A stretch of 64,000 bases of DNA from Buttiauxella agrestis (GTDB lineage Bacteria > Pseudomonadota > Gammaproteobacteria > Enterobacterales > Enterobacteriaceae). How positions within the stretch are numbered: the first letter of the stretch is position 1; the number at the start of each line of letters is the position of its first letter. The stretch is taken from assembly GCF_900446255.1 (NCBI RefSeq), contig NZ_UIGI01000001.1:2196763-2260762 (forward strand). The letters run 5' to 3'. Shown in pieces: positions 5,716 through 56,556 of this stretch. The position numbers and the translations under genes were made by a program. The notes under the pieces were generated by a model. It was not told the origin of the DNA. It ran no database searches and was given only the letters and a program-made list of their open reading frames with translations.

Positions 5716-5721
5716 AAATTT

Positions 5722-5749: not shown

Positions 5750-5759
5750 AGACAGCAAA

Positions 5760-9011: not shown

Positions 9012-9031
9012 TATTTTATCCAGGAATAGCA

Positions 9032-36842: not shown

Positions 36843-36848
36843 ATCAGG

Positions 36849-36877: not shown

Positions 36878-36934
36878 GCCGCACGGAGTCGTTAGTTTCG
36901 ACATGGAAGTGTTAAGTTTACAACGAGGGAATGA

Positions 36935-37672
36935 ATGACCTTATACAGTATCGGTGAAGTCGCCGAACGATGTGCAATCAACCCCGTCACGCTGCGCGCG
37001 TGGCAGCGCCGCTACGGTCTCTTTAAACCGCAGAGGAGCGAGGGCGGGCATCGGCAGTTTGATGACGAAGATATCCTGCGTATCGAAGAGATTAAACGCC
37101 TGATTAAGAGCGGTGTGTCCGTAGGCAAGGTTAAAGCTTTACTTGAAGCAAACCAGATTACGGCTCACGACCATGATGCCTGGCGGTTACAGCAAGAAGA
37201 GGTGATGACCGTTTTGCGTTTTGTCCAACCGGCGAAACTGCGTGCAAAAATCGCGTCCATGGGGCGTGAAATCCCGGTTGATACCCTGATTGACCATGTT
37301 TTTATCCCGGTTCGTCAATGCCTTAGCCTCGATAAATATACCTCCAGAGCAATGATAAGCCTGCTTGATGGGTTGCTGATTGACTATGTTGTCCAGCGCC
37401 TTGCTGAATCACGCAACACTGAAGGTCAAGACACATTAATGATTGGCTGGGAAAGTGATGACCGTACCCGCCTGTGGCTCGAGGCCTGGCGTCTGTCACA
37501 ACATGGCTGGCGTCCTGATGTGCTGGCCGATCCGCTAGACTCTCCCCGTCCGGAATTATTCCCAGGCCAACATGTTTTTGTCTGGACAGGAAAGGCATTA
37601 ACTCTGCGCCAACAAGAACAACTGGAACACTGGCAAAAACAAGGGTTTGCCATCAAATTTCACGCGGGTTAA
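36935..37672 (+). CDS. bluR: BluR MerR-type repressor
   Basis: This 245-aa protein has an N-terminal MerR winged helix ([44 protein letters not shown]) followed by a larger effector-binding region. Length and sequence match E. coli BluR (YcgE). It represses ycgZ-ymgA-ariR and is antagonised by light-activated BluF. The 92-bp gap from bluF carries two TTGTACAA sites. No B12-binding motif (DxHxxG) is seen in the C-terminal domain, in line with E. coli BluR. Confidence 0.93.
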
Positions 37673-41244: not shown

Positions 41245-42156
41245 ATGGGCAAACTCGAAGATATTACGTTGCTGGTGGAAGTGGTTGAGGCGGGTGGGCT
41301 GGCTGCCGCCGGACGCCGGATGAACCTTTCTCCCGCCACCATGACGGCCAGGTTGAAAGCGCTGGAGGAGCGTTATCAGACCCGATTTTTTAACCGCTCC
41401 ACGCGCGCCATCGCCCTGACTCGAGCCGGGGAGGAGTTTTATCACGCCGCGCTGCGCGTGCTGGAAGAAATGGCGCAGGCCGAATCGAAACTGACGCAAA
41501 AAGAGGGTGTGCTGAGTGGCAGCCTGAGGATCTCTGCATCGTCAGATTTTGGCCGCCAGTATCTGTCGCCTGCGTTGCTCGATTTTTCCCGCCTTCATCC
41601 TGAGGTCAGAAGCTCGGTGTATCTTAGCGAGAATGTGGTGGATTTGATTGCCAACCGTCTGGACATGAGCGTGCGCTTCGGTAACCTTCCGGACAGCAAT
41701 CTGGTGACTAAATTTATTCGCCCCAACCACCGTGTGCTCGTGGCGGCGAAAAGTTACCTTGAAACACACGGCATTCCTCAGCATCCCGATGAGTTGCACG
41801 GGCATCGCTGCCTGGTGATGGAGCAACGCGGCACGCTGATGAACGAGTGGCGCTTTGAAGAAAAGGGCGAATCATCGTTGGTTCGGGTCACGCCAGCGAT
41901 GGTGTGTGATGACGGCGCACTACTGCGCCAGTGGGTGCTGGCCGGAGCGGGTATCGCCAGTAAATCCTGGTGGGACGTTAAGCGCGATGTGGAGCAGGGG
42001 CGGCTGGCGGTTCTGTTTGCGGAGTGTTTTATCGGTTTCAGCCGCCATGACAAAAAACAGGTCGGCCTCCAGTTTGTCTACCCGCAACGGCGTTTCCAGC
42101 CTTTGCAGGTGACCGCTTTCAGCGAGTTTTTCATTCACTGGCTGGATAATGAATAA
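41245..42156 (+). CDS. LysR-type regulator divergent from the OYE gene
   Basis: This 303-aa protein has helix-turn-helix LVEVVEAGGLAAAGRRMNLSPATMTARLKALEERY and the LysR effector domain of the CrgA/DsdC-like type (GSLRISASSDFGRQYLSPALLDFSRLHPEV, NRLDMSVRFGNLPDSN). Its start is 102 bp from the divergent OYE reductase gene, so it probably controls that gene. Confidence 0.9.
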   Translation: MGKLEDITLLVEVVEAGGLAAAGRRMNLSPATMTARLKALEERYQTRFFNRSTRAIALTRAGEEFYHAALRVLEEMAQAESKLTQKEGVLSGSLRISASSDFGRQYLSPALLDFSRLHPEVRSSVYLSENVVDLIANRLDMSVRFGNLPDSNLVTKFIRPNHRVLVAAKSYLETHGIPQHPDELHGHRCLVMEQRGTLMNEWRFEEKGESSLVRVTPAMVCDDGALLRQWVLAGAGIASKSWWDVKRDVEQGRLAVLFAECFIGFSRHDKKQVGLQFVYPQRRFQPLQVTAFSEFFIHWLDNE

Positions 42157-42188
42157 TTCAGCCTTGATGGATTTACTCCAGGTGCCTG

Positions 42189-42222
42189 TTGTTATAAATC
42201 TGTAACAAATCCTTCTTACACT
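42189..42222 (+). promoter_or_regulatory. PHO box and -10 upstream of phoX
   Basis: TTGTTATAAATCTGTAAC at 42189-42206 matches the PhoB-binding consensus (two CTGTCAT-type repeats around an AT-rich centre) at 16 of 18 positions. Ten bases later TACACT (42217-42222) stands as the -10. That is the usual geometry, with the PHO box in place of the -35. Together with the phosphatase gene it indicates phosphate-starvation induction by PhoBR. Confidence 0.87.
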
Positions 42223-42255
42223 GCTCACTTCTGATAACAATATCGAAAGGAAGCC

Positions 42256-44223
42256 ATGATGAGCAGACCTCTTAAGCCGCTGTTTAAACAAGAACACAGC
42301 AACGAAATCAGCAATTGCAGCGCTAACCCCGTTTTCTCAGATGTTGCCAGTGCTTTTGTCAGCCGCCGCCGTTTCCTGCAACTGGGTATGCTCGCCGGCA
42401 CGGCGGTGACATTCCCGGCACTGCTGAAATCGCCTGCTGCATGGGCGGTCGAGACTGCCATGGTGCGGCCTTCTTCACTCGGTTTTAACAGCATCGCCGT
42501 TTCGACCGACGACACCGTCCGCGTGCCAGAAGGTTACGTGGCGCGACCGTTTTACCGCTGGGGCGACGCGGTGGGTTTAAAAGGCAATCTGCCAGAGTTT
42601 AAGAAAGATGGCAGCAACACGACCGATGAGCAGGCGGCTCAGGCGGGAATGCACCATGACGGGATGGCGTGGTTTGGTCTGCCGCAGGGCAGTGATGACT
42701 CGCATCACGGATTGCTGGCGATGAACCATGAGTACATCGACAATGGTTTGCTGTTTAAAGATGGTGTGGCGAACTGGAGTCTGGACAAAGTCCGCAAGGG
42801 ACAGAATGCGATGGGGGTTTCGGTTATCGAGGTGAAAAAAGAGGGGGAAAACTGGGCAGTGGTTCGCCCCTCTGAGTTTGCACGTCGCATCACCGTGAAC
42901 ACTCCAATGACTTTAACCGGGCCTGCGAAACATCATGCCCTGATGAAAACCGCAGCCGACCCGCAGGGTGAAACAGTGCTGGGCACCATGCAAAATTGCG
43001 CCAACGGGCATACGCCATGGGGAACTTATCTGACGTGTGAAGAGAACTGGTCGGATATTTTCGTTAAGAAAGCCGCGCCGAATGCACTCGAAAAACGCTA
43101 TGGCATCAGCGACAGCGATGACTCCTACCGCTGGAGTGAAGTTGACCCGCGCTTTAGCGTGGACGCCACACCGAATGAACCCAATCGCTTCGGCTGGGTG
43201 GTGGAAATTGACCCGTATAATCCGACATCAACCCCGCGTAAACATACCGCGCTCGGGCGTTTTAAACATGAAGGGGCGGCGGTGACGCTGGCTGCGGATA
43301 ACCGCGTTGTTGCCTATATGGGCGATGACCAGAAATTCGAGTACATCTATAAATTTGTTTCGGCGGGCATTTACGATGCCAGCAATCGCGAATCGGCGAT
43401 GAACCTGCTTTCTGAAGGCACGCTGTATGTGGCGAAATTTAATGACGATGGTAGCGGCCAATGGTTGCCGCTGGTTTATGGGCAATCAGGACTTGATCAC
43501 AGTAACGGTTTTGCAAGCCAGGGCGAGTTGCTGATCAAAACCCGTCTTGCCGCCGATGTGGTTGGCGCAACGAAAATGGACCGACCGGAGTGGATTGCGG
43601 TCGATACCCATACCGCGGGGAGCGTGTATTGCACGTTGACCAATAACAGCGATCGCGGCAAAGAAGGCAAAGCCCCGGTAGATGCCGCTAACCCGCGTGC
43701 TAACAATGTTTACGGGCACATCATGCACTGGAGCGAGGAGAACAGCGACCCGGCATCAACCACCTTTAAGTGGGATATTCTGGTGTTGGGCGGCAAGCCC
43801 GATAGCGTGGATGAAAAAACCAAAGGCTCAATGACCGGGGCTGAATTTGGTAGTGCGGATGGTTTGTCGTTTGACCCTCGCGGCGTGCTATGGATTCAGA
43901 CGGATGTTTCGTCCAGCACCATCAACAAAAAAGCCTACGAGGGCATGGGCAATAACCAGATGCTCGCCACCGTCCCTGGCTCCAACGAATATCGCCGTTT
44001 CCTCACCGGCCCACGCGGCTGTGAGATAACCGGCATCGCCTTTACCCCGGACAACCGTACACTGTTTATTAATATCCAGCACCCCGGCGAACCTGGCGAT
44101 GATATCAGCGACCCGGCGAATCCTACTGCCGTTTCCACCTGGCCAGATGGCGATAAAACTAGTCGCCCGCGTTCTTCCACGGTGGTGATCGTGAAAGCAG
44201 ATGGCGGAGTCATCGGCAGCTAA
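42256..44223 (+). CDS. phoX: PhoX-family alkaline phosphatase, Tat-exported
   Basis: This 655-aa protein begins with a twin-arginine signal (SRRRFLQLGMLAGTAVTF, residues 36-53) preceded by an unusually long n-region, and cleaved near AAWAVE. The body is the PhoX/DUF839 beta-propeller: GMAWFGLPQGSDDSHHGLLAMNHEY, CANGHTPWGTYLTCEENW, ADGLSFDPRGVLWIQTDVSSS, GPRGCEITGIAFTPDNRTLF. The Cys, Glu and Asp residues in these segments are those that hold the Fe-Ca cofactor. It releases phosphate from phosphomonoesters. AAGGAAG precedes the double ATG start. Confidence 0.92.
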   Translation: MMSRPLKPLFKQEHSNEISNCSANPVFSDVASAFVSRRRFLQLGMLAGTAVTFPALLKSPAAWAVETAMVRPSSLGFNSIAVSTDDTVRVPEGYVARPFYRWGDAVGLKGNLPEFKKDGSNTTDEQAAQAGMHHDGMAWFGLPQGSDDSHHGLLAMNHEYIDNGLLFKDGVANWSLDKVRKGQNAMGVSVIEVKKEGENWAVVRPSEFARRITVNTPMTLTGPAKHHALMKTAADPQGETVLGTMQNCANGHTPWGTYLTCEENWSDIFVKKAAPNALEKRYGISDSDDSYRWSEVDPRFSVDATPNEPNRFGWVVEIDPYNPTSTPRKHTALGRFKHEGAAVTLAADNRVVAYMGDDQKFEYIYKFVSAGIYDASNRESAMNLLSEGTLYVAKFNDDGSGQWLPLVYGQSGLDHSNGFASQGELLIKTRLAADVVGATKMDRPEWIAVDTHTAGSVYCTLTNNSDRGKEGKAPVDAANPRANNVYGHIMHWSEENSDPASTTFKWDILVLGGKPDSVDEKTKGSMTGAEFGSADGLSFDPRGVLWIQTDVSSSTINKKAYEGMGNNQMLATVPGSNEYRRFLTGPRGCEITGIAFTPDNRTLFINIQHPGEPGDDISDPANPTAVSTWPDGDKTSRPRSSTVVIVKADGGVIGS

Positions 44224-44229
44224 TCAGTA

Positions 44230-44255
44230 ACGGCCTCTGTGAAGAGGCCGTATTT
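44230..44255 (+). terminator. Terminator after phoX
   Basis: ACGGCCTC and GAGGCCGT form an 8-bp stem with loop TGTGAA, followed by ATTTCC. It lies 7 bp past the phoX stop. The T-run is short. Confidence 0.75.
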
Positions 44256-44268
44256 CCACAGACAATGA

Positions 44269-44376
44269 GGTGATACTGGAATCATTTCCTTTAACGGCCC
44301 GTTATTATCAGACCAAAACTTCGGTTACACCGGGCACGGCGATGCCTCAGCAACGCTGGTTTTGACATATCAATAA
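44269..44376 (+). pseudogene. Remnant of a fimbrial subunit gene (C-terminal end)
   Basis: In the frame ending at TAA 44374-44376, the DNA reads IISFNGPLLSDQNFGYTGHG and then DASATLVLTYQ-stop. This has the polar stretch and final alternating strand typical of pilin-family C-termini; the window's own subunits end in ATLNLTYQ, FDLQYQ and FTLTYE. The frame is closed upstream by TGA at 44266 and no start or signal peptide is present. It is probably the tail of a lost fimbrial subunit or adhesin gene. Confidence 0.55.
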
Positions 44377-44491
44377 TTCGACTGAGCTGAAGAGGCAATA
44401 AAATTAAATTTATTGCCCTTTTCGTGAAGGCCATACTATCTGTAACGGAAGGTAGAGGATTAATCAGGCAGCCCTGGCTCGAAAGTTCGGG

Positions 44492-45133
44492 TCAGTATTT
44501 TTTTGGCAAGGAATTTATCTTTAACAATTTCCCTCTATCCAACTCTATATGGCCACCGGTTCGCAGCGACAAAAGAATCTTCATAATCCCGCTACGTGAA
44601 AGATTGGACTTGCTGCGGATATAGCTTTCAATCGTTGTGTTGTTTCTGAGATCCTCATCCTCGCAAATGTACTCTAATATTTGCGCTCGAATAATATCGT
44701 AGGTGCGGGGCGCCGAAATTTGTTGCCCAAAGGTATAAAGTTTCGTCGTGACGACTAATAGATGTTGAGCCAGTGTTTTCCATAAATCGTGTTTTTCAAT
44801 CTGCTCAAGCGCATCGCTGGTCGTCATAATCCCAATCTCACAAGCCGAAACGGTTTTAAGATAGGTACCGAAATTCATACTGGTGAAGTTTCCTAAGCCA
44901 AAAACGGAAGGCGTTTTTCCGTAAACCATTACGATGTCGTCTTCTTTTCTGTGTAACTCAAACTTGCCTTTAGCAATCAGATAGCACAAAGGAGCATCCT
45001 GGCTGGCAATACTTATTTTTCGGCGTGGGGGGTAGGTTTTGACGACGGCGAAGGGCAAAAGGGCATTGACCAGTTCGGCTGAATAGGGAGATGGAACGGA
45101 AAGTAGCGTGGGAAGTTCATTTTCAACGCTCAT
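44492..45133 (-). CDS. IprA/YaiV-like winged-helix regulator (paralogue A)
   Basis: This 213-aa protein has a cyclic-nucleotide-binding-like N-terminal domain (LCYLIAKGKFELHRKEDDIVMVYGKTPSVFG) and a C-terminal winged helix (SYIRSKSNLSRSGIMKILLSLRTGGHIELDRGKLLKIN). This layout is that of IprA (YaiV) of enterobacteria. The conserved cNMP-binding phosphate loop is not evident, so it may not bind a nucleotide. I use the Met at 45133, with AAGGG 8 bp upstream. It is 109 bp downstream of its paralogue and in the same direction, so they are likely cotranscribed. Confidence 0.85.
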   Translation of the reverse strand: MSVENELPTLLSVPSPYSAELVNALLPFAVVKTYPPRRKISIASQDAPLCYLIAKGKFELHRKEDDIVMVYGKTPSVFGLGNFTSMNFGTYLKTVSACEIGIMTTSDALEQIEKHDLWKTLAQHLLVVTTKLYTFGQQISAPRTYDIIRAQILEYICEDEDLRNNTTIESYIRSKSNLSRSGIMKILLSLRTGGHIELDRGKLLKINSLPKKY

Positions 45134-45242
45134 TGCAGTGCCCTTAATCAAAACTATTCCGAGGTTTTAATATCAATTATAGGGGCACTTACAATGTTAA
45201 GAGCAAAAATTTATTGGCGCAAAAGTGGCTAACTTGCTCAAT

Positions 45243-45908
45243 TCAAGAGCATTTTACGGGTAGGTTACTTACGCCAAGCAGCACTCCACGCTGTAATTCA
45301 ATATGCCCATCTTCACGCAGCCGGGAAAGAATACGCATAATGCCACTACGTGAGAGATAGGTTCTGTCTTGAATGTAATTGGCTGCGGTCACATTCATAC
45401 GAAAACGCTCCGACTCCTGCATTAACTCCAGCAACTGGATTCTGATTATCTCGTAGGAAGAGAGTTGCGATATGACAGTGCAATGCTCATAAATTCTTGA
45501 AGCTGTGTAAATAATCAGATGGCATAGGCTTTCCCATAGCTGCTCCTTTTCAATAACCAGGCTGATTCGCTCAGCTGAAATACGGCTTATCTTCACATTT
45601 TCAGATGCACGCACATATAGATGAGGGTGTTGCGTCTGTAAATTACTCACCCCAAGCAAGAATGGCCCTTTCTCCGAGTTAAGAATCATCCCGTCCCCAC
45701 GACGATGTAACGTGACGTTTCCTTCATGTAATAAGTAGCACACCCTCTTATTATTGTAGATGTAGCGCAGGGCCTCACCTCTGGATGGGGTAAATATCTC
45801 TGCGTATGGGCTGATGCAATCCATCAATTTTTGAATATGCACGAGAGGCTTTGCTGTCGAAACAGGTACAGATTGAGTAATATTTTCGACAAAGATTTTC
45901 GACTTCAT
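45243..45908 (-). CDS. IprA/YaiV-like winged-helix regulator (paralogue B)
   Basis: This 221-aa protein is a clear paralogue of the 44492-45133 product: RVCYLLHEGNVTLHRRGDGMILNSEKGPFLLG in the sensor-like domain and YIQDRTYLSRSGIMRILSRLREDGHIELQRG in the winged helix, where SRSGIM(K/R)IL is identical in both. It is divergent from the major pilin of fimbrial operon 2 across a 532-bp region, so fimbrial control is likely. A copy of the 18-bp motif shared with two other promoters lies 87 bp upstream. Confidence 0.85.
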   Translation of the reverse strand: MKSKIFVENITQSVPVSTAKPLVHIQKLMDCISPYAEIFTPSRGEALRYIYNNKRVCYLLHEGNVTLHRRGDGMILNSEKGPFLLGVSNLQTQHPHLYVRASENVKISRISAERISLVIEKEQLWESLCHLIIYTASRIYEHCTVISQLSSYEIIRIQLLELMQESERFRMNVTAANYIQDRTYLSRSGIMRILSRLREDGHIELQRGVLLGVSNLPVKCS

Positions 45909-45994
45909 GTATCAGAGTCCATAAGTTTTCACCTACGAGTGCGTTATTGGGTTTCAATTATCATTGCGATGATGTCTTTATTAAATGAATATAT

Positions 45995-46012
45995 GATCTA
46001 AAAATAGACTGA
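45995..46012. promoter_or_regulatory. Shared 18-bp motif, copy C
   Basis: GATCTAAAAATAGACTGA matches copy A (53674-53691) at 14 of 18 positions, including the half-site TAGACTGA exactly. It begins 87 bp upstream of the IprA-like paralogue B start. Confidence 0.5.
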
Positions 46013-46175
46013 GAATATAACAATTATTTAATAACTACAGTTTAAAAGAATTTAAGAGGTGATCATTTTTAGGTTTTTTACAATTAATGTTGTTTGGTTT
46101 GTATCGCATAATTCATTGATATGTATGGTTGCTGCGCTTGCGGGTAATGTGTTTTTAATAAATTGTTAATAAATC

Positions 46176-46193
46176 AGTCTACATTTAGATAAG
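46176..46193. promoter_or_regulatory. Shared 18-bp motif, copy B
   Basis: AGTCTACATTTAGATAAG matches copy A (53674-53691) at 13 of 18 positions, with the first 8 identical. It ends 247 bp before the major pilin start. Confidence 0.5.
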
Positions 46194-46440
46194 AATAAAA
46201 TTGTCACAATAAAATAGTTGGATTAAATTTATCTCCAGCAAGACAACATCACCTGTAAGAACAGTTTGCTATTTGGTTTATAGATTTAAATCAAGGGCGA
46301 AAATTGGATATTGGTATTTTAGTACATATGTACAAAAAAGATGGATGTCTGCGCTTCTGAATAAGAAGTATAGAAACCTGCTATCGCAACATATAAATGT
46401 TATGCGATTTGCTGGCACAACACTCTCAAGGAAAATTTAA

Positions 46441-46971
46441 ATGAAAAAGAATCTGATCGCTGTTGCTTTTGCTGCTGTTGCCGCTGTTTCTGCATCTAAT
46501 GCATTTGCACTTTCTGGCACCGTTAACTTCACCGGTGAAATTCTGGACGCCGCTTGTACTGTTGATGTCGCTTCTCAGAACCAGACTGTTGCACTGGGTG
46601 CATATAACAAGTCTGAATTCCCCAATTTTGGTGATGTTACAGCAGCTAAACGATTCTCTATAGTTCTGAAAGACTGCCCGGCAACAGTAACTGCTGCGCA
46701 CGTACGTTTTGATGGTACACCAGAAGCATCTAACCCAGACCTATTAGCAATTAACAGTACTGTTGCGGGTGCAGCAACTGGCGTGGCAATTAACCTGATG
46801 TCTGCTGATATGGCTCAATTGCCACTGCACGGTGAGAATACATACCGTTACAATCTGAGCAGCACTGAAGACAACACTTTGAATTTCTACGCTCAGTATA
46901 AAGCAACAGCTATTCCAGTTACTGCTGGTCCAGCAAACTCTGTAGCTAACTTCTCTGTTATCTATAACTAA
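46441..46971 (+). CDS. Major fimbrial subunit of operon 2 (FimA-like pilin)
   Basis: This 176-aa precursor has a signal peptide (LIAVAFAAVAAVSASNAFA) and a pilin domain with Cys in LDAACTVDVASQ and LKDCPATVT, ending VANFSVIYN. It shares plan and several phrases with the pilin at 5760-6296. AAGG lies upstream of the ATG after a 250-bp leader. It is promoter-proximal and followed by a terminator hairpin, so it should be the abundant shaft subunit. Confidence 0.92.
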   Translation: MKKNLIAVAFAAVAAVSASNAFALSGTVNFTGEILDAACTVDVASQNQTVALGAYNKSEFPNFGDVTAAKRFSIVLKDCPATVTAAHVRFDGTPEASNPDLLAINSTVAGAATGVAINLMSADMAQLPLHGENTYRYNLSSTEDNTLNFYAQYKATAIPVTAGPANSVANFSVIYN

Positions 46972-46990
46972 TCTGCACCAGTAATAACAG

Positions 46991-47015
46991 GGGCCGGATA
47001 ACCCGGCCCTTTTTT
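46991..47015 (+). terminator. Hairpin with T-run between major pilin and chaperone genes of operon 2
   Basis: GGGCCGG and CCGGCCC pair around a 5-base loop and are followed by TTTTTT. It lies 19 bp after the pilin stop and 13 bp before the chaperone start, the same position as the hairpin at 5722-5749 in operon 1, so it should act as an attenuator rather than an operon end. Confidence 0.88.
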
Positions 47016-47028
47016 ATAGAGGTATAAA

Positions 47029-47706
47029 ATGAACTTTTTTAGCAAAACTTTAATTGCCCTGGCAATCGCCAGCACGGGTATTTCTGCGGCCAATGCGGGT
47101 GTTATTATTGGCGGCACTCGTGTCATTTATGACGGTAATAAAAAGGAAGCATCTATTAGTGTTAACAACCCGGATGGAACGCCTTATTTGATTCAGTCCT
47201 GGATTGAGACGCAAAATGGTGGCGCCGAGAAAGCTCCTTTTGTTATCACACCTCCTTTATATCGTCTGGATAGCAATCAGCAAAACGTTGAACGAATTAT
47301 TCTGGCCGGTTCTGTTGCACAAGATAAAGAAAGTTTGTACTGGCTGAATATTAAAGCAATTCCAGCAGCACCTAAAAAAGATAATACATTACAAATCGCG
47401 GTGAAAACACGCTTCAAACTAATTTACCGCCCGGCAGATCTAAAAGGTACGACCCCTGAAGAGAAGGCTGAATCCCTGACCTGGTCTGTTGCCGGTAATC
47501 AACTACAGGTCACCAACCCAAGTTCGTATGTTATTAATTTTAATGAAATCAAAGTTGGCGGAAAAAAACTTGACGACGTGTCTTATGTGCTGCCAGGCGC
47601 AACTGCACGCTTCACTCTGCCAAAGGGTGTGAGCGGTGGGAATATGACCTTTACCGTAATTAATGATTACGGTGGTCCAGGTCCTGTACACAGCAAAAGC
47701 CTTTAA
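47029..47706 (+). CDS. Periplasmic fimbrial chaperone of operon 2
   Basis: This 225-aa PapD-like chaperone has a signal peptide ending at SAANAG and the family segments GVIIGGTRVIYDGNKKEASI, YLIQSWIE, FVITPPLYRLDSNQQN with a following Arg, LYWLNIKAIPA, and the C-terminal domain with VINFNEIKVGGK. It begins 13 bp after a T-run and continues into the usher gene after 37 bp. Confidence 0.94.
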   Translation: MNFFSKTLIALAIASTGISAANAGVIIGGTRVIYDGNKKEASISVNNPDGTPYLIQSWIETQNGGAEKAPFVITPPLYRLDSNQQNVERIILAGSVAQDKESLYWLNIKAIPAAPKKDNTLQIAVKTRFKLIYRPADLKGTTPEEKAESLTWSVAGNQLQVTNPSSYVINFNEIKVGGKKLDDVSYVLPGATARFTLPKGVSGGNMTFTVINDYGGPGPVHSKSL

Positions 47707-47743
47707 CACTCCGACCGCGAAATAAAACGGGACAAAATTAATT

Positions 47744-50266
47744 ATGCAAAAAGAAACTAATCTTTTTAAACCGGCCAGGCTGGCAATATATATCGCGGTC
47801 GCGTTGAGTGCATTAAGCCATACAGCAAGTGCTCGGGACGTATTCAACCCAGAATTACTCGAGTTAGGTAACCCAGGGGCAAGTAAAACCGACCTTTCAT
47901 CTTTTGAGTCTGGTTCGCAGGCCCCGGGTACTTATCATGTCGATATTGTTCTCGATGATCAGACGATTGACACACGTGATATTGAATTTAAAGCCGTGAC
48001 AGATAAAAACGGTGATAGCGACTTACAGCCATGTATCAGCGTTGAAACCCTGAAAAGCTGGGGAGTAAAAACAGAGTTATTCCCTGAACTGTCAAAAGAT
48101 GGAACATGTGCCAATTTTGGCGCTATTCCACAGGCATCGGCAACGCTTCAATTTAGCACCCAGCGACTGTTAATTAGTATTCCGCAGGCGGCTTTGTCTC
48201 CGCAAGCTCGCGGCTATGTGCCACCCGAGCAGTGGGACGAAGGTATTACTGCGGCAATGCTTAACTACAGCATGAGCGGGGCGAATAACTGGTCACGAAA
48301 TAAGAATGGGTCTGACGGTAATTCCCAGTATGCCAACCTGCGTCCAGGTTTCAATATCGGCCCATGGCGTTTGCGTAACTACACCACATGGAACCGTGAC
48401 AGCAACGGGCAGGATAGGTGGGATACGGTTTATACCTACGCCCAGCGCGACATCATTCCGTTAAAAGCGCAGTTAACGGCGGGTGACAGCACTGCACCTT
48501 CAGAAATTTTCGACAGTATGCCGTTCCGTGGGGCGCAACTGGCCTCGGATGACGATATGTTGCCCGATTCAATGAAGGGCTATGCGCCGGTGGTGCGTGG
48601 TATTGCCAGAAGCAACGCGCAAATTATGATTCGCCAGAATGGTTACGTGATTTACCAGAGTTACGTCGCACCGGGTGCATTTGAAATTACGGATATGTAC
48701 CCAACCGGCGGCGCGGGTGATTTAGATGTCACGGTTAAGGAAGCGGATGGCAGTGAACAGCATTTCACTGTGCCATTTGCTTCTTTACCGTTGTTGCAAC
48801 GTGAAGGGCGACTGAAGTATGCCGTCACGGGTGGCCAGTACCGTTCTTATGACAACAGTGTTGAGAAAACCCCGTTTGCCCAGATGACGGCCATCTACGG
48901 TTTGCCTAAAGGTTTTACCATTTATGGCGGTATGCAGGAATCAAGTAAGTATCAGTCACTGGCGTCCGGTATTGGCAAAAACATGGGGGACTTCGGGGCT
49001 GTTTCTGCAGACGTGACTCAGGCCTGGTCCCAACCTAAGAACGAAGTGAAAAGTAACGGCCAGTCATGGCGCGCACGCTACAGTAAAAACTTCGTCGAAA
49101 CGGGAACCAACTTTGCTATTGCGGGTTATCGCTATTCAACCAGTGGTTACTACGGCATGCAGGACGTGCTCGATTCCTACAGCAATAACAATATTATTGC
49201 CGAGCGCCGCCGCAACCGTATGGAAGTGACCATGAACCAGTCGCTGGGTGCCGATTTGGGTTCTGTGATGCTGGGCGCGGTACGGGAAGATTACTGGAGT
49301 AACGGTAAAACGATGCAGTCTATCACCGCGGGGTATAACAACTCCTGGCGCGCGATTAACTACGGCATTACCTATACCTATAGCAAAAATGGTACTTCAG
49401 ACGGATACAGCCAGGCCGCCCGCTACGACAAAGACCAGCAGATTGCACTGAATATCAGCATTCCGCTTGACCGATTCCTGCCGAGCACATGGGCTAACTA
49501 CTCCATGAATGCCAGCCAAAAAACCGGCACTACGCATACGGTGGGTCTTAACGGTGTCGCAATGGAAAACAATTCCCTCAACTGGAACGTGCAGGAAGGG
49601 TATGGCACCAATGACGTCGGTAATACGGGTACCGCGAATGCTGATTACCGAGGGACTTACGGTGAAGTGACGGCGGGTTATAGCTATGACCAGAACAGCG
49701 ATCGCCTGAATTATGGTCTGCAGGGTGGGGTCATTGCTCACGCAGATGGTATTACGCTTTCACAACCGCTGGGCGAAACCAACGTCCTGATAAAAGCGCC
49801 AGGCGCTAAGGGCGTGAGCGTACAAAACCAGACCGGGGTTAAAACAGACTTCCGTGGTTATACGGTGGCAAGTAGCGTAACACCATTCCGTAAAAATGAT
49901 ATTACGCTCGACCCGCAAACCCTGGCGAACAATGCTGAGCTTGACTTAACCACCAGTACGGTCATTCCAACTCGTGGAGCTGTAGTCCGGGCTGAATATA
50001 TTGCCAACCTGGGGATGCGCGTATTAATGACGTTAACCCAGAAGAATGGGAAATCTGTTCCATTCGGCGCAATGGTGAGCATCCCTGGACAGCAAGGGCG
50101 CAGCTTTATTGTCGGGGATGCAGGCCAGGTCTATTTAACTGGTGTTAATCCTGAGGGGACATTGACGGTGCAATGGGGGCAGGGATCTGATGAGAAATGC
50201 CAGGTGACCTATAAATTACCTGAGACTGAAAAAGGGATTGTTAACTTGTCCAGGCAGTGTCAATAA
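47744..50266 (+). CDS. Fimbrial outer-membrane usher of operon 2
   Basis: This 840-aa usher has N-terminal DVFNPELLELGNPG, FESGSQAPGTYHVDIVLD, then RGYVPPEQWDEGITAAMLNY, FRGAQLASDDDMLPDSMKGYAPVVRGIARSNAQ, APGAFEITDMYPTGGAGDLDVTV, and C-terminal TGVKTDFRGYTV and FGAMVSIPGQ. It is homologous to the usher at 2376-4961 along the whole length but clearly diverged. It assembles the operon 2 fibre. Confidence 0.95.
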   Translation: MQKETNLFKPARLAIYIAVALSALSHTASARDVFNPELLELGNPGASKTDLSSFESGSQAPGTYHVDIVLDDQTIDTRDIEFKAVTDKNGDSDLQPCISVETLKSWGVKTELFPELSKDGTCANFGAIPQASATLQFSTQRLLISIPQAALSPQARGYVPPEQWDEGITAAMLNYSMSGANNWSRNKNGSDGNSQYANLRPGFNIGPWRLRNYTTWNRDSNGQDRWDTVYTYAQRDIIPLKAQLTAGDSTAPSEIFDSMPFRGAQLASDDDMLPDSMKGYAPVVRGIARSNAQIMIRQNGYVIYQSYVAPGAFEITDMYPTGGAGDLDVTVKEADGSEQHFTVPFASLPLLQREGRLKYAVTGGQYRSYDNSVEKTPFAQMTAIYGLPKGFTIYGGMQESSKYQSLASGIGKNMGDFGAVSADVTQAWSQPKNEVKSNGQSWRARYSKNFVETGTNFAIAGYRYSTSGYYGMQDVLDSYSNNNIIAERRRNRMEVTMNQSLGADLGSVMLGAVREDYWSNGKTMQSITAGYNNSWRAINYGITYTYSKNGTSDGYSQAARYDKDQQIALNISIPLDRFLPSTWANYSMNASQKTGTTHTVGLNGVAMENNSLNWNVQEGYGTNDVGNTGTANADYRGTYGEVTAGYSYDQNSDRLNYGLQGGVIAHADGITLSQPLGETNVLIKAPGAKGVSVQNQTGVKTDFRGYTVASSVTPFRKNDITLDPQTLANNAELDLTTSTVIPTRGAVVRAEYIANLGMRVLMTLTQKNGKSVPFGAMVSIPGQQGRSFIVGDAGQVYLTGVNPEGTLTVQWGQGSDEKCQVTYKLPETEKGIVNLSRQCQ

Positions 50267-50404
50267 ATAACGTCTCAGATAATGGTGTAAACCTCCGTTT
50301 AACAGTGCGCTGCGCACTATGATTTGCTAAACACCACAGAAGTGGGCGTTCAGAAAATATATGTGCAGTGTCATTAACTTAGTCACGAATTTCTGGTAAT
50401 TAAT

Positions 50405-51358
50405 ATGAACAAATTAATATTAAATTATATTTTATTAATGACCGCATTGCTCTCGAGTGGATCGGTTTTGGCAGGGTGTGCTACAAATAGGTCAGGAGCG
50501 AATCAACAAACCCTAACAATCACAGTACCTGATTTTAGTGTACAAAGAGATGTGCCTAATGGGACCATAATTGCTACAGCTAACAGTGTTGCGTCTGATG
50601 TTGTGTTTAGTTGTACCGCAGGAGGCGGCGGATGGTATTCAATAATGAGTTTATTTACCACCCCTAGTGGCATTGCTCATTTTTATAAAACGAATATAGA
50701 TGGTGTCGGCGTCTCAATAGGGGGGGCGACAACCAATTTTGAAAATCCTCCAATTTATGCTTCTACTAATATTAATGAAGCAATATGGATTTCCGCAAAA
50801 ACGGTAAAATTTATCAAAACCGGTCCAATAACTTCAGGTACGATAACATCTGGCGTGTTGGGATATATGTGGGGAAATGATGACGGACCTTCTGTCCCGG
50901 CCTTACAATATTTTGTGAATGGACCAAAGATAACAGTATTAGCCTGTCAAATTAAAACGCAAAATCTGATGTTTCCTATTGGGGATATACCGGCGTCAGC
51001 TTTTGGCTCGTCGGTGGGCGCTACACCAGCAGTGGCGCAAAATACACAAAACTTAGGTTTAGACTGTGATCCTCAGGCTAATATAAACGTTTCGCTTTCA
51101 GGTACGCAAAACCCGGATGTTGGCACAACAAGCGTATTAGCGTTATCCGGCCAGGGGAGTGCGGGTGTTGCAAAAGGTGTGGGTGTACAGATTGTCTATA
51201 ACGGATCGCCGCTAATTTTAAATAACAATATAGTTTTAAAACGCTCAATGGGTGGTATAGAAACATTCCCATTGGTTGCCCGTTATTACCAAACCAAAAC
51301 AGTAGTAGCAACAGGCACGGCCAATGCAAACGCCACGCTTAATTTAACCTATCAATAA
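50405..51358 (+). CDS. Fimbrial tip adhesin of operon 2
   Basis: This 317-aa exported protein has a signal peptide ending SVLAGC; the Cys there is the first of the adhesin domain rather than a clear lipobox. A unique N-terminal domain runs to about residue 180. A pilin domain follows (ITVLACQIKTQNLMFPIGDIP, LGLDCDPQANINVSLSG) and ends ANATLNLTYQ. The DNA is notably more AT-rich than the usher gene and is preceded by a 138-bp gap, so this gene may have been exchanged separately, as often seen in tip adhesins. Confidence 0.82.
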   Translation: MNKLILNYILLMTALLSSGSVLAGCATNRSGANQQTLTITVPDFSVQRDVPNGTIIATANSVASDVVFSCTAGGGGWYSIMSLFTTPSGIAHFYKTNIDGVGVSIGGATTNFENPPIYASTNINEAIWISAKTVKFIKTGPITSGTITSGVLGYMWGNDDGPSVPALQYFVNGPKITVLACQIKTQNLMFPIGDIPASAFGSSVGATPAVAQNTQNLGLDCDPQANINVSLSGTQNPDVGTTSVLALSGQGSAGVAKGVGVQIVYNGSPLILNNNIVLKRSMGGIETFPLVARYYQTKTVVATGTANANATLNLTYQ

Positions 51359-51376
51359 AATGGGGAGATACACGAA

Positions 51377-51880
51377 ATGAAAAAATTAATTGGAATGAGT
51401 TTTTTAGTAGCGAGTGCATCATTATTTGCAGCAGACCCGGTGACTCTTAATATTACCGGTAATATCGTGGCAACGCCGTGCCAGGTAAGCAGTGATAGCG
51501 TTACGATAGGGGTGGATTTGGGCCAGAATATTCAGGCTTCAGATATGCAGACAGCTGGCGCTGCCGCAGGATGGAAACCGATTAATATCAAACTGGTTTC
51601 TTGCCCGGCAGGGACATCTTCCGTAATAATGACCATGCATGGTACAGCAGACCCAGTACAGCCAGCCGATTTGTATTTGAACAACGGTGCAGCACAGAAC
51701 GTTTCTGTTCAGTTGCAAAGTACAGGTGGAACGGTATTAGGTGATGGTAAAACAATTACCGGAAACATTAGCAGTGGTGCATATACCTTCCCGTTACAGG
51801 CTCGCGCATATACCAAAGATGGCGGTGCTACACCGGGTACAATTGCTGCAACGGTAACCGCGTCTTTTGTTTATAATTAA
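51377..51880 (+). CDS. Fimbrial minor subunit of operon 2
   Basis: This 167-aa pilin-family protein has a signal peptide (IGMSFLVASASLFAAD), Cys in VATPCQVSSDS and LVSCPAGTSS, and the C-terminal strand TVTASFVYN. It starts 18 bp after the adhesin and closes the operon. Operon 2 has one minor subunit and one chaperone where operon 1 has two of each. Confidence 0.9.
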   Translation: MKKLIGMSFLVASASLFAADPVTLNITGNIVATPCQVSSDSVTIGVDLGQNIQASDMQTAGAAAGWKPINIKLVSCPAGTSSVIMTMHGTADPVQPADLYLNNGAAQNVSVQLQSTGGTVLGDGKTITGNISSGAYTFPLQARAYTKDGGATPGTIAATVTASFVYN

Positions 51881-51913
51881 TTATTAGAAATTTAATAAAT
51901 GAGTTCCCTATCT

Positions 51914-51944
51914 GATGCTGCATATTCTTAGATTATGCAGCATC
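51914..51944. terminator. Long hairpin after fimbrial operon 2
   Basis: GATGCTGCATA and TATGCAGCATC form an 11-bp perfect stem with a 9-base loop. It is followed by GGATTCTCTC rather than a T-run, so it is likely an mRNA-stabilising 3' end or a weak terminator. Confidence 0.6.
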
Positions 51945-52084
51945 GGATTCTCTCACAAGTAATAACATACAAAACCATTGTAGCTTGTTAGGGCATTGCG
52001 TCCGTCCCACCAGTTTGTTTAAACCATCAGATAATTTCACATTACGTGCACCCATTAAATAGCATTGTAATGGGAGGGTGTATA

Positions 52085-52735
52085 TTGAAAGTTGTTATTG
52101 AAGAATCAGATGCTTTGTATCGTCATGGCATGGAACAATTGTTAAAGAAAATTTTTGCTAGTCAGGGGAATGAAACTGTTGAAATTGAAAAGCTAACCCC
52201 AACCAATTTATTGAGTGCGGATATCATTGTGAAGCGTTACGATGCCGGCATTAAGTATATTTGCCAGCCGCTAATACGTAAAAGAAAAGCTTACAGTTTG
52301 ATTATTGGCGTTTATGAAGGGAATAGGGATGATATTAATTCAGGCCTTCCGCTTTGTATCTCTAATATTGTTTTTATAAATAGAAGAGAGTCAGTCGTTA
52401 AGGCGAAAGACATCATCATGCAGGGGTGGGAAGAATGTCACTCCAGACCTCGCAGCTATAATCACTTGATGTGTGTTTCATGCAAACACCGAACGTTGAC
52501 TTCACAACAAGTGTTGGTGGCCGCGCATTTTTATCGTGGCTATAGTCCGCAAAAAACAGCTGAAATATTAAATATCAACTATAAAACAGTTGGGGCGCAT
52601 AAGCGCATGATAATGACTAAATTCGATCTCGAGACTGATTATGACTTGTTGAATTTTATTAATATTCTTTTAAAGAATAATTATGCGTCAGAGCGATTTA
52701 AAAATATTTTAAATTCGCGGCTAGAGCATCTTTAA
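52085..52735 (+). CDS. LuxR-type regulator with atypical receiver domain (paralogue 1), TTG start
   Basis: This 216-aa protein lies just after fimbrial operon 2. I start it at TTG 52085, which has GGGAGGG 6 bp upstream and aligns exactly with the start of its paralogue at 53430; upstream ATGs have no such site. The N-terminal part looks like a receiver domain (VVIEESDALYRHGMEQLL) but where the phosphoacceptor Asp should be it has Arg51 (ADIIVKRY). A Cys pair (C130-x2-C133) leads into a LuxR helix-turn-helix, RTLTSQQVLVAAHFYRGYSP with INYKTVGAHKRMIMTKF. It probably regulates fimbriae. Confidence 0.82.
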   Translation: MKVVIEESDALYRHGMEQLLKKIFASQGNETVEIEKLTPTNLLSADIIVKRYDAGIKYICQPLIRKRKAYSLIIGVYEGNRDDINSGLPLCISNIVFINRRESVVKAKDIIMQGWEECHSRPRSYNHLMCVSCKHRTLTSQQVLVAAHFYRGYSPQKTAEILNINYKTVGAHKRMIMTKFDLETDYDLLNFINILLKNNYASERFKNILNSRLEHL

Positions 52736-52803
52736 GAGCGAGCATGGGGGAGAGATAAGAACTTTATGATAATTTCATCAGCTGATGATTTTTAATTTTT
52801 TTT

Positions 52804-53430
52804 CTATTCTTTCAGCAAATAGGCAGGCTGATTTTTATCTTTTAAAGTTCTTAAAAAATGCAATAGCTCGCAATCATTTTTGAGATTAAATTTGGACATC
52901 AGGTGTCGTTTATGGGCACTAACCGTTTTTACATTGATGCCTAGCTGCTGAGAGATTTTAAGAATGTCATTGCCGTGCAGTAATGATTTCGCAATCATAA
53001 TCTGTTGAGGTGTGAGAGTGCGGTACTTACACTGCAAACATTTGTTGCAATGAGAACCCATGGGGTGAGCAATGGTATCGCGCCATGCAAGGCTCACTTT
53101 ATTGCGCGCACTGTGTACTGGCTCAGTGCGTGCAATAAAGATAATATTCTTAATGCAAAGCGGTAGCTCATCATGATGGAGATTTTCACCCCCTTCATAA
53201 ATACCAATAATTAGCCCCGGTTTACTGCGGAACTTGAGAATGGGCTGGCAGATAAACTGCGAACCGGCAATGAAATCTTTTACGATAATATCAGCGTGGA
53301 TCGCATTTATTTTTGTCAGATCGTGAAAATGCACCGACTCGTTATGAACGTTTTGTAAAACCTCCTCAAGAAATAATTCCAGCCCTTTCCTGAAGAGTGT
53401 ATTTGATTCATCAATGGCAATATTTAACAT
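52804..53430 (-). CDS. LuxR-type regulator with atypical receiver domain (paralogue 2)
   Basis: This 208-aa protein is a paralogue of the 52085-52735 product and is convergent with it. It shares IDESNTLFRKGLELFLEEVL, SQFICQPIL, LIIGIYEGG, LPLCIKNIIFIAR, and the helix-turn-helix IKTVSAHKRHLMSKFNLKND-like segment (here INVKTVSAHKRHLMSKF). It keeps Asp52 in ADIIVKDF at the phosphoacceptor position, unlike its partner. The linker has three Cys (128, 131, 134). AAGG lies 6 bp before the ATG. A copy of the shared 18-bp motif lies 244 bp upstream. Confidence 0.85.
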   Translation of the reverse strand: MLNIAIDESNTLFRKGLELFLEEVLQNVHNESVHFHDLTKINAIHADIIVKDFIAGSQFICQPILKFRSKPGLIIGIYEGGENLHHDELPLCIKNIIFIARTEPVHSARNKVSLAWRDTIAHPMGSHCNKCLQCKYRTLTPQQIMIAKSLLHGNDILKISQQLGINVKTVSAHKRHLMSKFNLKNDCELLHFLRTLKDKNQPAYLLKE

Positions 53431-53965
53431 GGTAGACCTTAAAATATGGGCAATAAAATATTAACATTTAAATAAAGAAGGGGAGTCTCCGCAATGATAT
53501 TAAAAAGAAAGTTGCCAGATTAAATATTAAGGGTGAAAGTAATCTTATACACTATGAATGCAGCGCTTTAATGGCTGATTTGTTGGTGCATATTAAGATG
53601 AGCACCATATAATTGGATTTTAACCGGTAGGGGTGATTTTCTACAAATTATGTAATTAGTTCAAGATATATTTAGTCTACAATTAGACTGACATAATTAA
53701 CCTGCTGAATTTCAAGTTCTTCAGGTGTAATAGGGTTCAATACCTACATATATTTTCTTAGTGCTATATCGCTAGCCTGGAACATTCATCCCTTCATGTT
53801 GACTGTTTAACATTTACAGGATTGAGAAGTGCCAAAGTTACCGATACGTATAGGGACGGGTATGAGGAAAGTACAGGTACGAAACGGTTTGCGGGCATAA
53901 AGCCAGAGTTACTATTGGTTTTCTTAAAGAAATTGAGGAGTTAATGCAGGAGAGATTTCTTAGAA
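53431..53965. promoter_or_regulatory. Intergenic region upstream of LuxR paralogue 2
   Basis: These 535 bases run from the LuxR gene start to the tRNA genes. They hold the third copy of the 18-bp motif (53674-53691) and AT-rich DNA suitable for a promoter. No gene or terminator with confidence; the last 100 bases should be the 3' flank of the tRNA transcript. Confidence 0.45.
53674..53691. promoter_or_regulatory. Shared 18-bp motif, copy A
   Basis: AGTCTACAATTAGACTGA contains a perfect inverted repeat (AGTCTA-N4-TAGACT). It begins 244 bp upstream of the LuxR paralogue 2 start codon. Copies B and C lie in the fimbrial operon 2 control region. Confidence 0.5.
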
Positions 53966-54042
53966 TGGTGCGTCCGAGTGGACTCGAACCACCGACCCCC
54001 ACCATGTCAAGGTGGTGCTCTAACCAACTGAGCTACGGACGC
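53966..54042 (-). tRNA. tRNA-Val (anticodon GAC)
   Basis: A 77-nt tRNA with encoded CCA: acceptor GCGTCCG pairs with CGGACGC, D-arm AGCTCAGTTGGTTAGAGC, anticodon loop CTTGACA with GAC, T-arm GTTCGAGTC. The anticodon stem is CACCACC/GGTGGGG-type. It corresponds to valV/valW of E. coli, which also lie beside mdtK. Confidence 0.97.
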
Positions 54043-54083
54043 ACTGTTTGTTGCGGTACTGCTGATTGCGGTAAAACGTTAAA

Positions 54084-54160
54084 TGGTGCGTCCGAGTGGA
54101 CTCGAACCACCGACCCCTACCATGTCAAGGTAGTGCTCTAACCAACTGAGCTACGGACGC
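54084..54160 (-). tRNA. tRNA-Val (anticodon GAC), first of the pair
   Basis: A second 77-nt tRNA-Val(GAC) with encoded CCA, nearest the promoter. It differs from the other copy by a compensating pair in the anticodon stem (CTACC/GGTAG against CCACC/GGTGG), so the structure is kept. The two are 41 bp apart and form one transcript. Confidence 0.97.
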
Positions 54161-54188
54161 ACTGTGTTGTCTGTGACAACGGGGACGA

Positions 54189-54217
54189 ATATTAGCGGCA
54201 GCACCCGAGCCTTGCAA
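54189..54217 (-). promoter_or_regulatory. tRNA-Val operon promoter
   Basis: On the minus strand TTGCAA (-35) and TAATAT (-10) are 17 bp apart, followed by a GC-rich discriminator TCGTCCCC, the arrangement of stringently controlled stable-RNA promoters. The first tRNA begins 28 bp after the -10. Confidence 0.8.
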
Positions 54218-54280
54218 GCGCTAAACAGCAAATTTCTTCCATATTTCACTCGTTTGCTGCGCATCTGCGCAACTCGGTGT

Positions 54281-54307
54281 AAAAATAGCCGCCAAAAAGG
54301 CGGCTAT
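54281..54307 (-). terminator. Terminator after mdtK
   Basis: ATAGCCGCC and GGCGGCTAT form a 9-bp stem, followed by TTTTT on the minus strand. It begins 6 bp past the mdtK stop. Confidence 0.88.
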
Positions 54308-54313
54308 GAACAT

Positions 54314-55696
54314 TTACCGTGCAGCGCGTTGCAAAATCGTGATTGAAGGTTGGCGCTGTAACCAACGCATCCGCAGCATCATCATGATGGCCGCAGACGT
54401 CAGGCCGATGATAAATCCAATCCAGAAACCAGCCGGGCCCATCGGTTCAACCACCCAATTGGTCAGCGCCAGAATGTAACCGCTTGGCAATCCCAACACC
54501 CAGTAGGCGATAAACGTGATAAAGAAAATCGAGCGCGTATCTTTATAGCCACGCAGCACACCGCTGCCGATCACCTGCACAGAATCAGAAAGCTGATATA
54601 CCGCCGCCAACAGCATTAAGTGCGCCGCCAGCGCGACAACTTCAGGATTGCTGTTATAGAGCAGGGCGATGTGTTCGCGCATCACTACCGTGAAAATCGC
54701 AGTCAGCATCGCCATGCACATTCCCACGCCGATACCGGTCCAGGCCGCCGTTTGCGCATCGAGCGTTGAACCCTGGCCCAGACGGAACCCTACGCGGATC
54801 GTGACCGCAGCAGAAAGGGACATCGGCAGGACAAACATCAGCGAGCTGAAGTTAAGGGCAATCTGGTGCCCAGCCACGTCGATAATCCCCAGCGGCGCAA
54901 CCAGTAGCGCGACCACGGCGAACAGCGTCACTTCAAAGAACAGCGCCAGTGCAATCGGCAGCCCGAGTTGGGTTAAGCGATACATCACTTTCCAGTCGGG
55001 TTTGATGAAGCCTTTTGGCAGCTTCAAATCGCGCATCGAGCGGGCTTTCTTCACATAGGAAATCATGCTGAAGAACATCACCCAATATACGGCAGCCGTT
55101 GCGACACCGCAGCCTACGCCACCGAGTTCGGGCATGCCAAAGTGACCATAAATAAAGATGTAGTTAACCGGAATGTTGACCAGCAAACCGATAAAACCCA
55201 TCACCATGCCGGGTTTGGTTTTCGCCAGGCCTTCACACTGGTTACGCGCCACCTGGAAGAATAAATATCCCGGGACGCCCCACAGCAATGCGCGCAAGTA
55301 GCCGACGGCTTTATCGGCCAGTTGTGGGTCGATATTTTTCATCGCATAGATGATATAACCCGCGTTCCACAGCACTATCATGATGAGCGCCGAGACAATG
55401 CCCGCCAGCCAGAAACCCTGGCGAATCTGGTGCGCGATACGCTCACGGCGACCAGACCCGTTGAGTTGTGCCACGGTGGGCGTCAGCGCCATTAACAAAC
55501 CATGGCCGAACAGAATGGCGGGTAGCCAGATAGAGGTACCGATTGCCACAGCGGCCATATCGGTTGCGCTGTAGCCACCGGCCATCACGGTATCGACAAA
55601 GCCCATTGAGGTTTGTGCGATTTGCGCGAGGATGACAGGTATCGCCAGCGCAAGGAGCTGGCGGGCTTCAACTATGTACTTCTGCATTTTTAACAC
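54314..55696 (-). CDS. mdtK: MATE multidrug efflux transporter MdtK
   Basis: This 460-aa inner-membrane protein has 12 hydrophobic segments and MATE signatures: [39 protein letters not shown] and [26 protein letters not shown]. It matches E. coli MdtK (457 aa). It exports cationic drugs and fluoroquinolones using sodium or proton gradient. It is divergent from ribE, as in E. coli. Confidence 0.95.
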
Positions 55697-55914
55697 CTGA
55701 TTATTATTAGTTATTAGAAAGACAACAAGACCGCCAGAAATGGCAGAAAAATAGGAATTGCAGGGGAATTAGCCTGACTATTGTAGCGGCAGAAAACGAA
55801 TACGCCAGCCAAATAATGGTGGGGTAGTGCGGATAGCTGGCAAGCTGTTTTTCCAACTGTTAAAGTGCTGCATTACGAATTATCAGCAGCCGAATAATTA
55901 CCAGGAGTTTGACG

Positions 55915-56556
55915 ATGTTTACAGGTATTGTGCAGGGTACTGCGACCCTGGTCTCCATTGATGAGAAACCCAATTTCCGTACCCACGTAATTGAAATGCC
56001 AGATGAGATGTTACCTGGCCTTGAAACAGGCGCGTCGGTGGCACACAACGGCTGTTGCCTGACCGTCACTGAAATCAATGGCAACCACGTCAGCTTTGAT
56101 TTAATGAAAGAGACGCTGCGTATTACCAATCTCGGCGAGTTAGTTGTGGGTGATAGTGTTAACGTCGAACGCGCGGCTAAATTTAATGATGAAATCGGCG
56201 GGCATCTTATGTCCGGTCATATTATGACGACCGCTGAAGTCGCAAAGATTCTGACCTCAGAAAATAACCGCCAGATCTGGTTTAAAATGCGCGATAAAAC
56301 CTTGATGAAATATATTCTGCATAAAGGATATATCGGCATTGATGGTATTAGCCTGACGGTCGGTGAAGTCACGGCTTCGCGTTTCTGCGTACATTTAATT
56401 CCGGAAACGCTTGAGCGCACCACGCTCGGCAGTAAGAAACTGGGGAATCGTATTAATATCGAAATCGACCCGCAAACCCAGGCGATAGTAGACACCGTTG
56501 AACGTGTGCTGGCACAGCGCGAAGCGACATTGGATGCGTTGCTACCGAAGGCGTGA
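55915..56556 (+). CDS. ribE: Riboflavin synthase alpha chain
   Basis: This 213-aa enzyme has two lumazine-binding repeats, each starting similarly ([15 protein letters not shown] and [16 protein letters not shown]), with [12 protein letters not shown] and [13 protein letters not shown] as matching segments. It forms riboflavin from two molecules of dimethylribityllumazine. I start at the ATG at 55915, with AGGAG 7 bp upstream; a TTG six bases earlier is in frame but less likely. It is divergent from mdtK and has no riboswitch that I can see. Confidence 0.95.

Follow-up and report, generated by a model that had tools for sequence, protein, structure and literature searches.

Within a 64,000-nucleotide stretch of the Buttiauxella agrestis genome (contig NZ_UIGI01000001.1, positions 2,196,763 to 2,260,762; hereafter the window), we identified an island of about 9.7 kb (window 44253-53934) that holds an entire chaperone-usher pilus module together with two paralogous genes for IprA-like proteins (IprA1 and IprA2) and two for LuxR-type proteins (LuxR1 and LuxR2). 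On sequence evidence, the IprA-like pair probably reads a palindromic operator, GTCTA-N4-TAGAC (GTGTA-N4-TACAC in a sister lineage), and activates the pilin gene, its own genes and LuxR2. The module, its operator, the near-fixed position of the operator relative to predicted promoters, its concentration in these control regions and the way its class follows a single residue of the recognition helix in IprA1 as well as in IprA2 were all obtained by computation.

Three operator copies, A, B and C, were found in the window (Table 1), and the palindrome has the extended form AGTCTA-N4-TAGACT. The initial annotation had placed related sequences at 53674-53691 (A), 46176-46193 (B) and 45995-46012 (C), all of which are present, and had reported that they match each other at 13-14 of 18 positions. 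The figure holds for A and B (13) and for A and C (14) but not for B and C, which match at 9 of 18 positions in that register because the motif is palindromic and C had been set in the wrong orientation to B; once both are read in the direction of the genes they face, B and the reverse complement of C match at 16 of 20 positions. The proposed distance of about 245 bp to the start codons was also reproduced, with 245 bp between the core of A and the LuxR2 start and 250 bp between the core of B and the start of the pilin gene. In first-order Markov resamples (n = 4000), two sites with at most one mismatch never occurred in the IprA1-pilin gap (0/4000), and the rate of an exact site in the gap upstream of LuxR2 was 0.00025; these tests use a pattern suggested by the copies themselves, the independent evidence being conservation in other genomes. 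Two other one-mismatch matches in the window, at 7187 and 38342, were rejected as sites, both lying inside LysR-type-looking genes (the first called by Pfam HTH_1, the second judged from its translation). No GTCTA- or GTGTA-type site at one mismatch or fewer was present in the gap ahead of the window's pilus operon 1.

Among 295 genomes of the family, 30 contained relatives of IprA1 (E ≤ 1e-30). As a query against genome contigs, IprA1 alone recovered no relative; an alignment query gave 75 named loci, including ones from Enterobacter, Citrobacter, Klebsiella, Kluyvera, Lelliottia, Buttiauxella, Rahnella, Atlantibacter and Siccibacter. Typically, IprA1 and IprA2 stand in that order and divergent from genes for pilin, chaperone, usher, adhesin and a FimG-like protein, often with a LuxR gene next. 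Defined as IprA1 with a divergent pilin gene, and thus leaving out loci with no pilin in reach, the module set comprised 62 members, the window included; one entry (L095_10773), the second gene of a pair mistaken for IprA1, was dropped before classes and alignment columns were compared. The operator is conserved at these orthologous promoters, with a site in 55 of the 62 modules: GTCTA in 31 (at most one mismatch allowed), GTGTA in 21 (exact), a hybrid in two and GTCCA in one. The same half-sites emerged from a census of every perfect 5-N4-5 palindrome upstream of the first IprA-like gene that made no use of the window motif: GTCTA accounted for 26 of 80 rows (L073 counted twice), GTGTA for 22 and the next commonest half-site for 5. 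Where IprA2 sits between IprA1 and pilin (G062, G020), two sites are present, one per gap, and in Enterobacter several sites are spaced 65-73 bp apart. Modules of different classes occur side by side in B. brennerae (L093; GTCTA with Gly and GTGTA with Ser at the helix position described below) and in B. izardii (L095; GTCTA and GTCCA). Among the loci recovered, one record titled Chryseobacterium sp. 18061 (L090, CACSKA010000002.1) carries an enterobacterial module and is probably misnamed, and in two others the usher is broken into two or three open frames (L119:5594-8132 and L067:5808-8329).

Occurrence across whole genomes was counted in genomes picked for holding IprA1 relatives, the GTCTA-type set excluding the assembly of the window itself. 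Exact RGTCTA-N4-TAGACY was found at nine places in 11 related genomes, five of which had none, and all nine lie inside module control regions, which is not the distribution of a motif occurring at chance frequency; the backward pattern was found at 27 places. RGTGTA-N4-TACACY was found at 22 places in 11 genomes (backward control, 16), of which 13 are in modules, all with the spacer ATTT, and nine are outside modules, with other spacers. Four of these unlinked places were read, and three fall inside long open frames. The fourth precedes two DUF1120 genes of B. brennerae by 205 bp (L152:8730-10366, G166:C15) and keeps the usual promoter offset (TTGAAA-17-CAATAT), making it a possible target outside the module.

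Both IprA-like proteins of the window exceed the gathering score of the Pfam domain HTH_46 (PF15977; 71.9 and 86.1 bits against 29.3) and fall below the curated cut-off of the IprA equivalog NF008810 (74.4 and 80.4 bits against 359); they are 31% identical to each other. IprA1 is predicted to have the architecture of the CRP/FNR superfamily, with an effector-domain beta roll, a long dimer helix and a C-terminal winged helix-turn-helix, in a structure comparison that took a second look at the 1000 top chains from Foldseek. In its recognition helix, LSRSxIMKIL, the variable residue x aligns with the Thr of the CRP motif SRET (Thr182). Residue x of IprA1 is Gly in 31/31 GTCTA modules and Ser or Thr in 21/21 GTGTA modules; where IprA2 is nearby, its residue x is Gly in 28/28 GTCTA modules and Ser or Thr, with one Ala, in 17/17 GTGTA modules. 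This is the sole column that separates the two operator classes in both paralogues, out of four such columns among 218 in IprA1 and three among 206 in IprA2, and no separating column was found in the chaperone (0/222), usher (0/839), pilin (0/174) or LuxR protein (0/200). A B. izardii module (L095@18106) combines Cys at x with GTCCA, yet GTCCA also occurs with Gly in L078. A tree built by a quick method divides into two main groups, IprA1 and IprA2, that branch alike; it places the Ser/Thr IprA1 proteins on a single branch (support 93) and requires six changes of state overall. A dimer bound to a site of two-fold symmetry, as in the CRP/FNR superfamily, would fit the palindromic operator and its agreement with the recognition helix.

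The position of the operator is nearly fixed. Of 57 control regions, 49 have ATAAT 33-42 nt after the site on the IprA1 side, against a mean of 0.9 and a maximum of 5 in shuffles, and 47 NATAAT motifs begin at 33-35 nt. On the opposite side, 56 of the 57 have a TTG, as in a −35 box, 9-12 nt after the site, against a shuffle mean of 4.4 and a maximum of 13. Given these offsets on both sides, one site can therefore serve two divergent promoters; regions with several sites have one beside each promoter. In the nearest orthologue (G301, IprA1 64% identical), sites lie at 101 and 290 bp, compared with 98 and 279 bp in the window, with a GTCCA far half and worn near halves; ATAAT follows at offset 33, TTG at offset 10. 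Sites linked to LuxR genes have TTG at offset 10-11 in four cases (window A, L082, L110 and L122, the last equal to L149 by match); at L060@693 the offset is kept, but the LuxR gene is 656 bp away, and L060@14482 is without that TTG. With transcription starting 7 nt after the −10 box, the operator centre falls near −53 relative to the predicted start, roughly a helical turn farther upstream than the class II activator place at −41.5, a position that suits activation without proving it.

Binding by the IprA-like pair, activation as opposed to repression, the make-up of the dimer and any signal sensed are what we infer from these patterns. The island would be a self-contained pilus module with its own control, in which IprA1 and IprA2, paralogues of CRP/FNR fold whose genes diverge from the pilus operon, would bind the GTCTA operator, or its GTGTA counterpart in the sister lineage, as an oriented heterodimer, with IprA2 on the promoter-far half and IprA1 on the near half. 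Placed just upstream of the −35 box, its operator centred about 53 bp before the predicted start, the bound pair would activate three promoters: that of the pilin gene through B, its own through C (positive feedback) and that of LuxR2 through A; the LuxR-type proteins would act downstream of the IprA-like pair. The heterodimer, taken alone, we regard as evenly balanced. It is suggested by one genus (G208 = L119, G282, and G095 = L120), in which IprA1 has Gly and IprA2, set apart from the main Ser branches of the tree, has Ser. Read toward IprA1, the site there is the hybrid GTGTA-ATTT-TAGAC (TAGAT in G282), and a second site, toward pilin, reads GTGTA-ATT[T/C]-TGGAT; after this second site, TTG comes at offset 10, and TACAAT, TATAAT or TAAAAT a further 17 nt away. 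Each of the two promoters thus has a Ser-type half on its far side and a Gly-type half on its near side, the pattern expected of an oriented heterodimer. That IprA1 and IprA2 instead bind only as homodimers, sharing the sites or competing for them (for example, as activator and antagonist), seems rather unlikely to us, even though the majority of sites are symmetric and sites are present where no IprA2 lies near IprA1 (three GTCTA modules, four GTGTA modules and the GTCCA module). Homodimers sit poorly with a genus that changes IprA2 only and one half-site only, in the same orientation at both promoters, and with the joint shift of both paralogues in the GTGTA class. Three genomes, all of this one genus, are known to have the hybrid pair, and G333, at a locus without pilus genes, has a Gly/Ser pair with GTCTG-TTTT-TAGAC instead of a GTGTA half, both of which weigh against the oriented heterodimer, the latter favouring homodimers. 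G333 may also hint that IprA2 went from Gly to Ser before the half-site changed. The neighbourhoods of L178 (G333), L119 and L179 are similar, with pilus genes in two of the genomes and the IprA-like pair alone in G333.

The initial annotation had envisaged one local circuit in which regulators of both families and their pilus are read from a common operator. Concentration and conservation of the motif in modules support such a circuit, with the IprA-like pair as its likely reader and pilin, the IprA-like genes and LuxR2 as its likely targets; nothing was found to indicate the LuxR proteins as readers. That a LuxR-type module protein reads the operator, the IprA-like genes being merely targets, is very improbable: LuxR genes accompany many modules and sites precede them in the window (A), L082, L110 and L122, but none of 200 LuxR alignment columns (36 proteins) separates the operator classes, L074, L079 and L113 have exact sites with no LuxR match in the examined locus, and the changes in the two IprA helices would have no counterpart. 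Repression of pilin and of itself by the IprA-like pair is unlikely, although somewhat less so. Autoregulatory sites are often repressor sites, and the 65-73 bp spacing in Enterobacter could permit looping; the operator, however, lies upstream of the −35 place, without overlap with predicted promoters, and its near-constant spacing on either side would suit RNA polymerase contact. We also consider it distinctly improbable that helix residue and operator agree through shared ancestry only, with an outside global regulator reading the site. Because the Ser/Thr IprA1 proteins form one clade, the agreement may largely be a single event, and the classes are separated just as well by three further columns of IprA1 and two of IprA2. 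Against this stand the absence of any separating column among the 1,435 of four co-inherited proteins, the adjacent Gly/GTCTA and Ser/GTGTA modules of B. brennerae, the separate Gly-to-Ser change in IprA2 of the hybrid genus and the restriction of GTCTA-type sites of other genomes to modules. Besides the possible single origin of the agreement, several observations count against control by the IprA-like pair: one half is worn in each of B and C, a TTG is missing from the −35 place of C, the proposed −10 box of LuxR2 is weak, the 57 control regions include near-duplicates and close relatives, and seven of the 62 modules are without a site, among them L061 and L062, which lie near the window in the tree and whose control regions show no clear operator site.

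IprA (YaiV) of Salmonella and Escherichia coli has the same Pfam domain, HTH_46, as the window pair, but the E. coli protein has the helix ISRSVVAEVL and its gene lies beside ampH, whereas the window pair lies beside a pilus operon. Upstream of 19 housekeeping iprA genes, no exact GTCTA- or GTGTA-type palindrome was found; four of these regions carry GTCA[A/T]-N4-[T/A]TGAC. The 5-N4-5 module operator also differs from that of E. coli CRP and Pseudomonas aeruginosa Vfr, TGTGA-N6-TCACA, and the RSA stretch by which CRP contacts cAMP is, judged by eye, not retained in the IprA1 alignment. Searches for PF15977 and for the operator in six spellings found no paper in the open-licence PMC literature, where absence means little. 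In Herbaspirillum seropedicae, Fnr1 and Fnr3 are reported to have a hybrid operator of two different half-sites, taken as a sign of oriented heterodimers (PMC5934665). The likeness lies in CRP/FNR paralogues combined with a hybrid operator, the window pair itself being Gly/Gly and hybrid sites occurring in the three genomes of one genus; as portrayed there, however, Fnr1-Fnr3 are oxygen-sensing global regulators, whereas the IprA-like pair is local and tied to a pilus operon. The Salmonella fim cluster likewise has several regulators beside a pilus operon (FimZ, FimY and FimW), LuxR-type included, and deletion of iprA in S. Typhimurium lowers fim and alters other fimbrial genes, as summarized in a review (PMC6527747). 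LuxR1 weakly matches the FimW model, but the fim cluster, as described there, has no CRP-like pair, whereas here the operator evidence favours the IprA-like pair.

The system would be a form of locally encoded pilus control within the CRP/FNR superfamily, and by its sequence the module looks like a portable, self-contained circuit in which protein and DNA signal seem to have changed together. It is conceivable, if somewhat doubtful, that Enterobacteriaceae pilus islands carry portable oriented-heterodimer circuits with positive feedback, in which one residue changed in both paralogues, along with both half-sites, creates a new address and lets modules coexist in one genome without cross-talk, as in the adjacent modules of B. 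brennerae and of B. izardii, the half-changed Gly/Ser state with its hybrid operator being alive in one genus. The analysis provides a directly testable predicted regulator and operator for many pilus clusters of Enterobacter, Citrobacter, Klebsiella, Kluyvera, Buttiauxella, Rahnella and others. The natural variants (Gly/Gly, Ser/Ser, Gly/Ser and Cys, with their own operators) offer a series, apparent intermediate included, on the joint change of duplicated regulators and their DNA sites, and bear on how adjacent copies of one circuit stay apart.

The segment 44253-53934 is considered an island because its flanks (window 42001-44252 and 53935-56000; 96.0% and 96.7% identity) lie only 211 bp apart in the B. 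agrestis comparison genome G001 (L142), the nearest genome available, which lacks the island at the corresponding place; the interval initially annotated, 44269..53691, almost coincides with it. Pilin, PapD-type chaperone, usher and adhesin, the components of a chaperone-usher pilus operon, were all recognized by Pfam matches, and the regulators said to flank them proved to be an HTH_46 pair and a GerE pair, LuxR1 and LuxR2 being 40% identical.

Table 1. Genes, operators and predicted promoter elements of the pilus island and its right edge (window coordinates)
Feature	Position	Strand	Remarks
IprA2, second IprA-like gene, helix LSRSGIMKIL	44492..45151	-	Pfam HTH_46 71.9 bits, cut-off 29.3
IprA1, IprA-like gene adjoining control region, helix LSRSGIMRIL	45243..45908	-	predicted CRP/FNR fold
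Predicted IprA1 -10 box GATAAT	45957..45962	-	offset 33 nt after operator C; place conserved in relatives
Operator C, toward IprA1, GTCTA-TTTT-TAGAT	45996..46009	-	one half worn
Operator B, toward pilin, GTCTA-CATT-TAGAT	46177..46190	+	one half worn
Predicted pilin promoter: -35 TTGTCA, 17-nt spacer, -10 TAAATT	46201..46229	+	TTG offset 10 after B; same place in relatives
Major pilin-like subunit	46441..46971	+	Pfam Fimbrial
Periplasmic chaperone	47029..47706	+	Pfam PapD_N, PapD_C
Outer membrane usher	47744..50266	+	Pfam Usher, PapC_N, PapC_C
Adhesin-like subunit with MrkD-like receptor domain	50405..51358	+	Pfam MrkDrd, Fimbrial
FimG-like minor subunit	51377..51880	+	NCBIfam FimG 117 bits (cut-off 220, not reached); no Pfam match at 0.001
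LuxR1, GerE-type, 3' of pilus genes	52046..52735	+	Pfam GerE; top NCBIfam matches BglJ and FimW, both under cut-off
LuxR2, GerE-type paralogue, probable target of operator A	52804..53430	-	Pfam GerE
Predicted LuxR2 promoter: -35 TTGAAC, 17-nt spacer, weak -10 GAAAAT	53636..53664	-	TTG offset 10 after A
Operator A, perfect palindrome AGTCTA-CAAT-TAGACT	53675..53688 (core)	-	faces LuxR2
Two tRNA-Val (GAC) genes	53966..54160	-	just beyond right edge of island

The PhoX proteins encoded in the window and in G001 are 98% identical. In G303 (L145:3494-7150), a different chaperone-usher operon follows PhoX at the place where the window has the island, indicative of a possible insertion hotspot beside tRNA-Val. 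Upstream of the island, BLUF-domain and MerR-like genes (window 35607-37672; named by sequence) have 87-88% identical counterparts that adjoin the module in B. noackiae (G020, L058:11475-13555). Pilus operon 1 (window 271-9892; pilin, chaperone, usher and adhesin) is followed by three consecutive LysR-type (HTH_1) genes and is thus another pilus operon with multiplied regulators, of a different family from those of the island.

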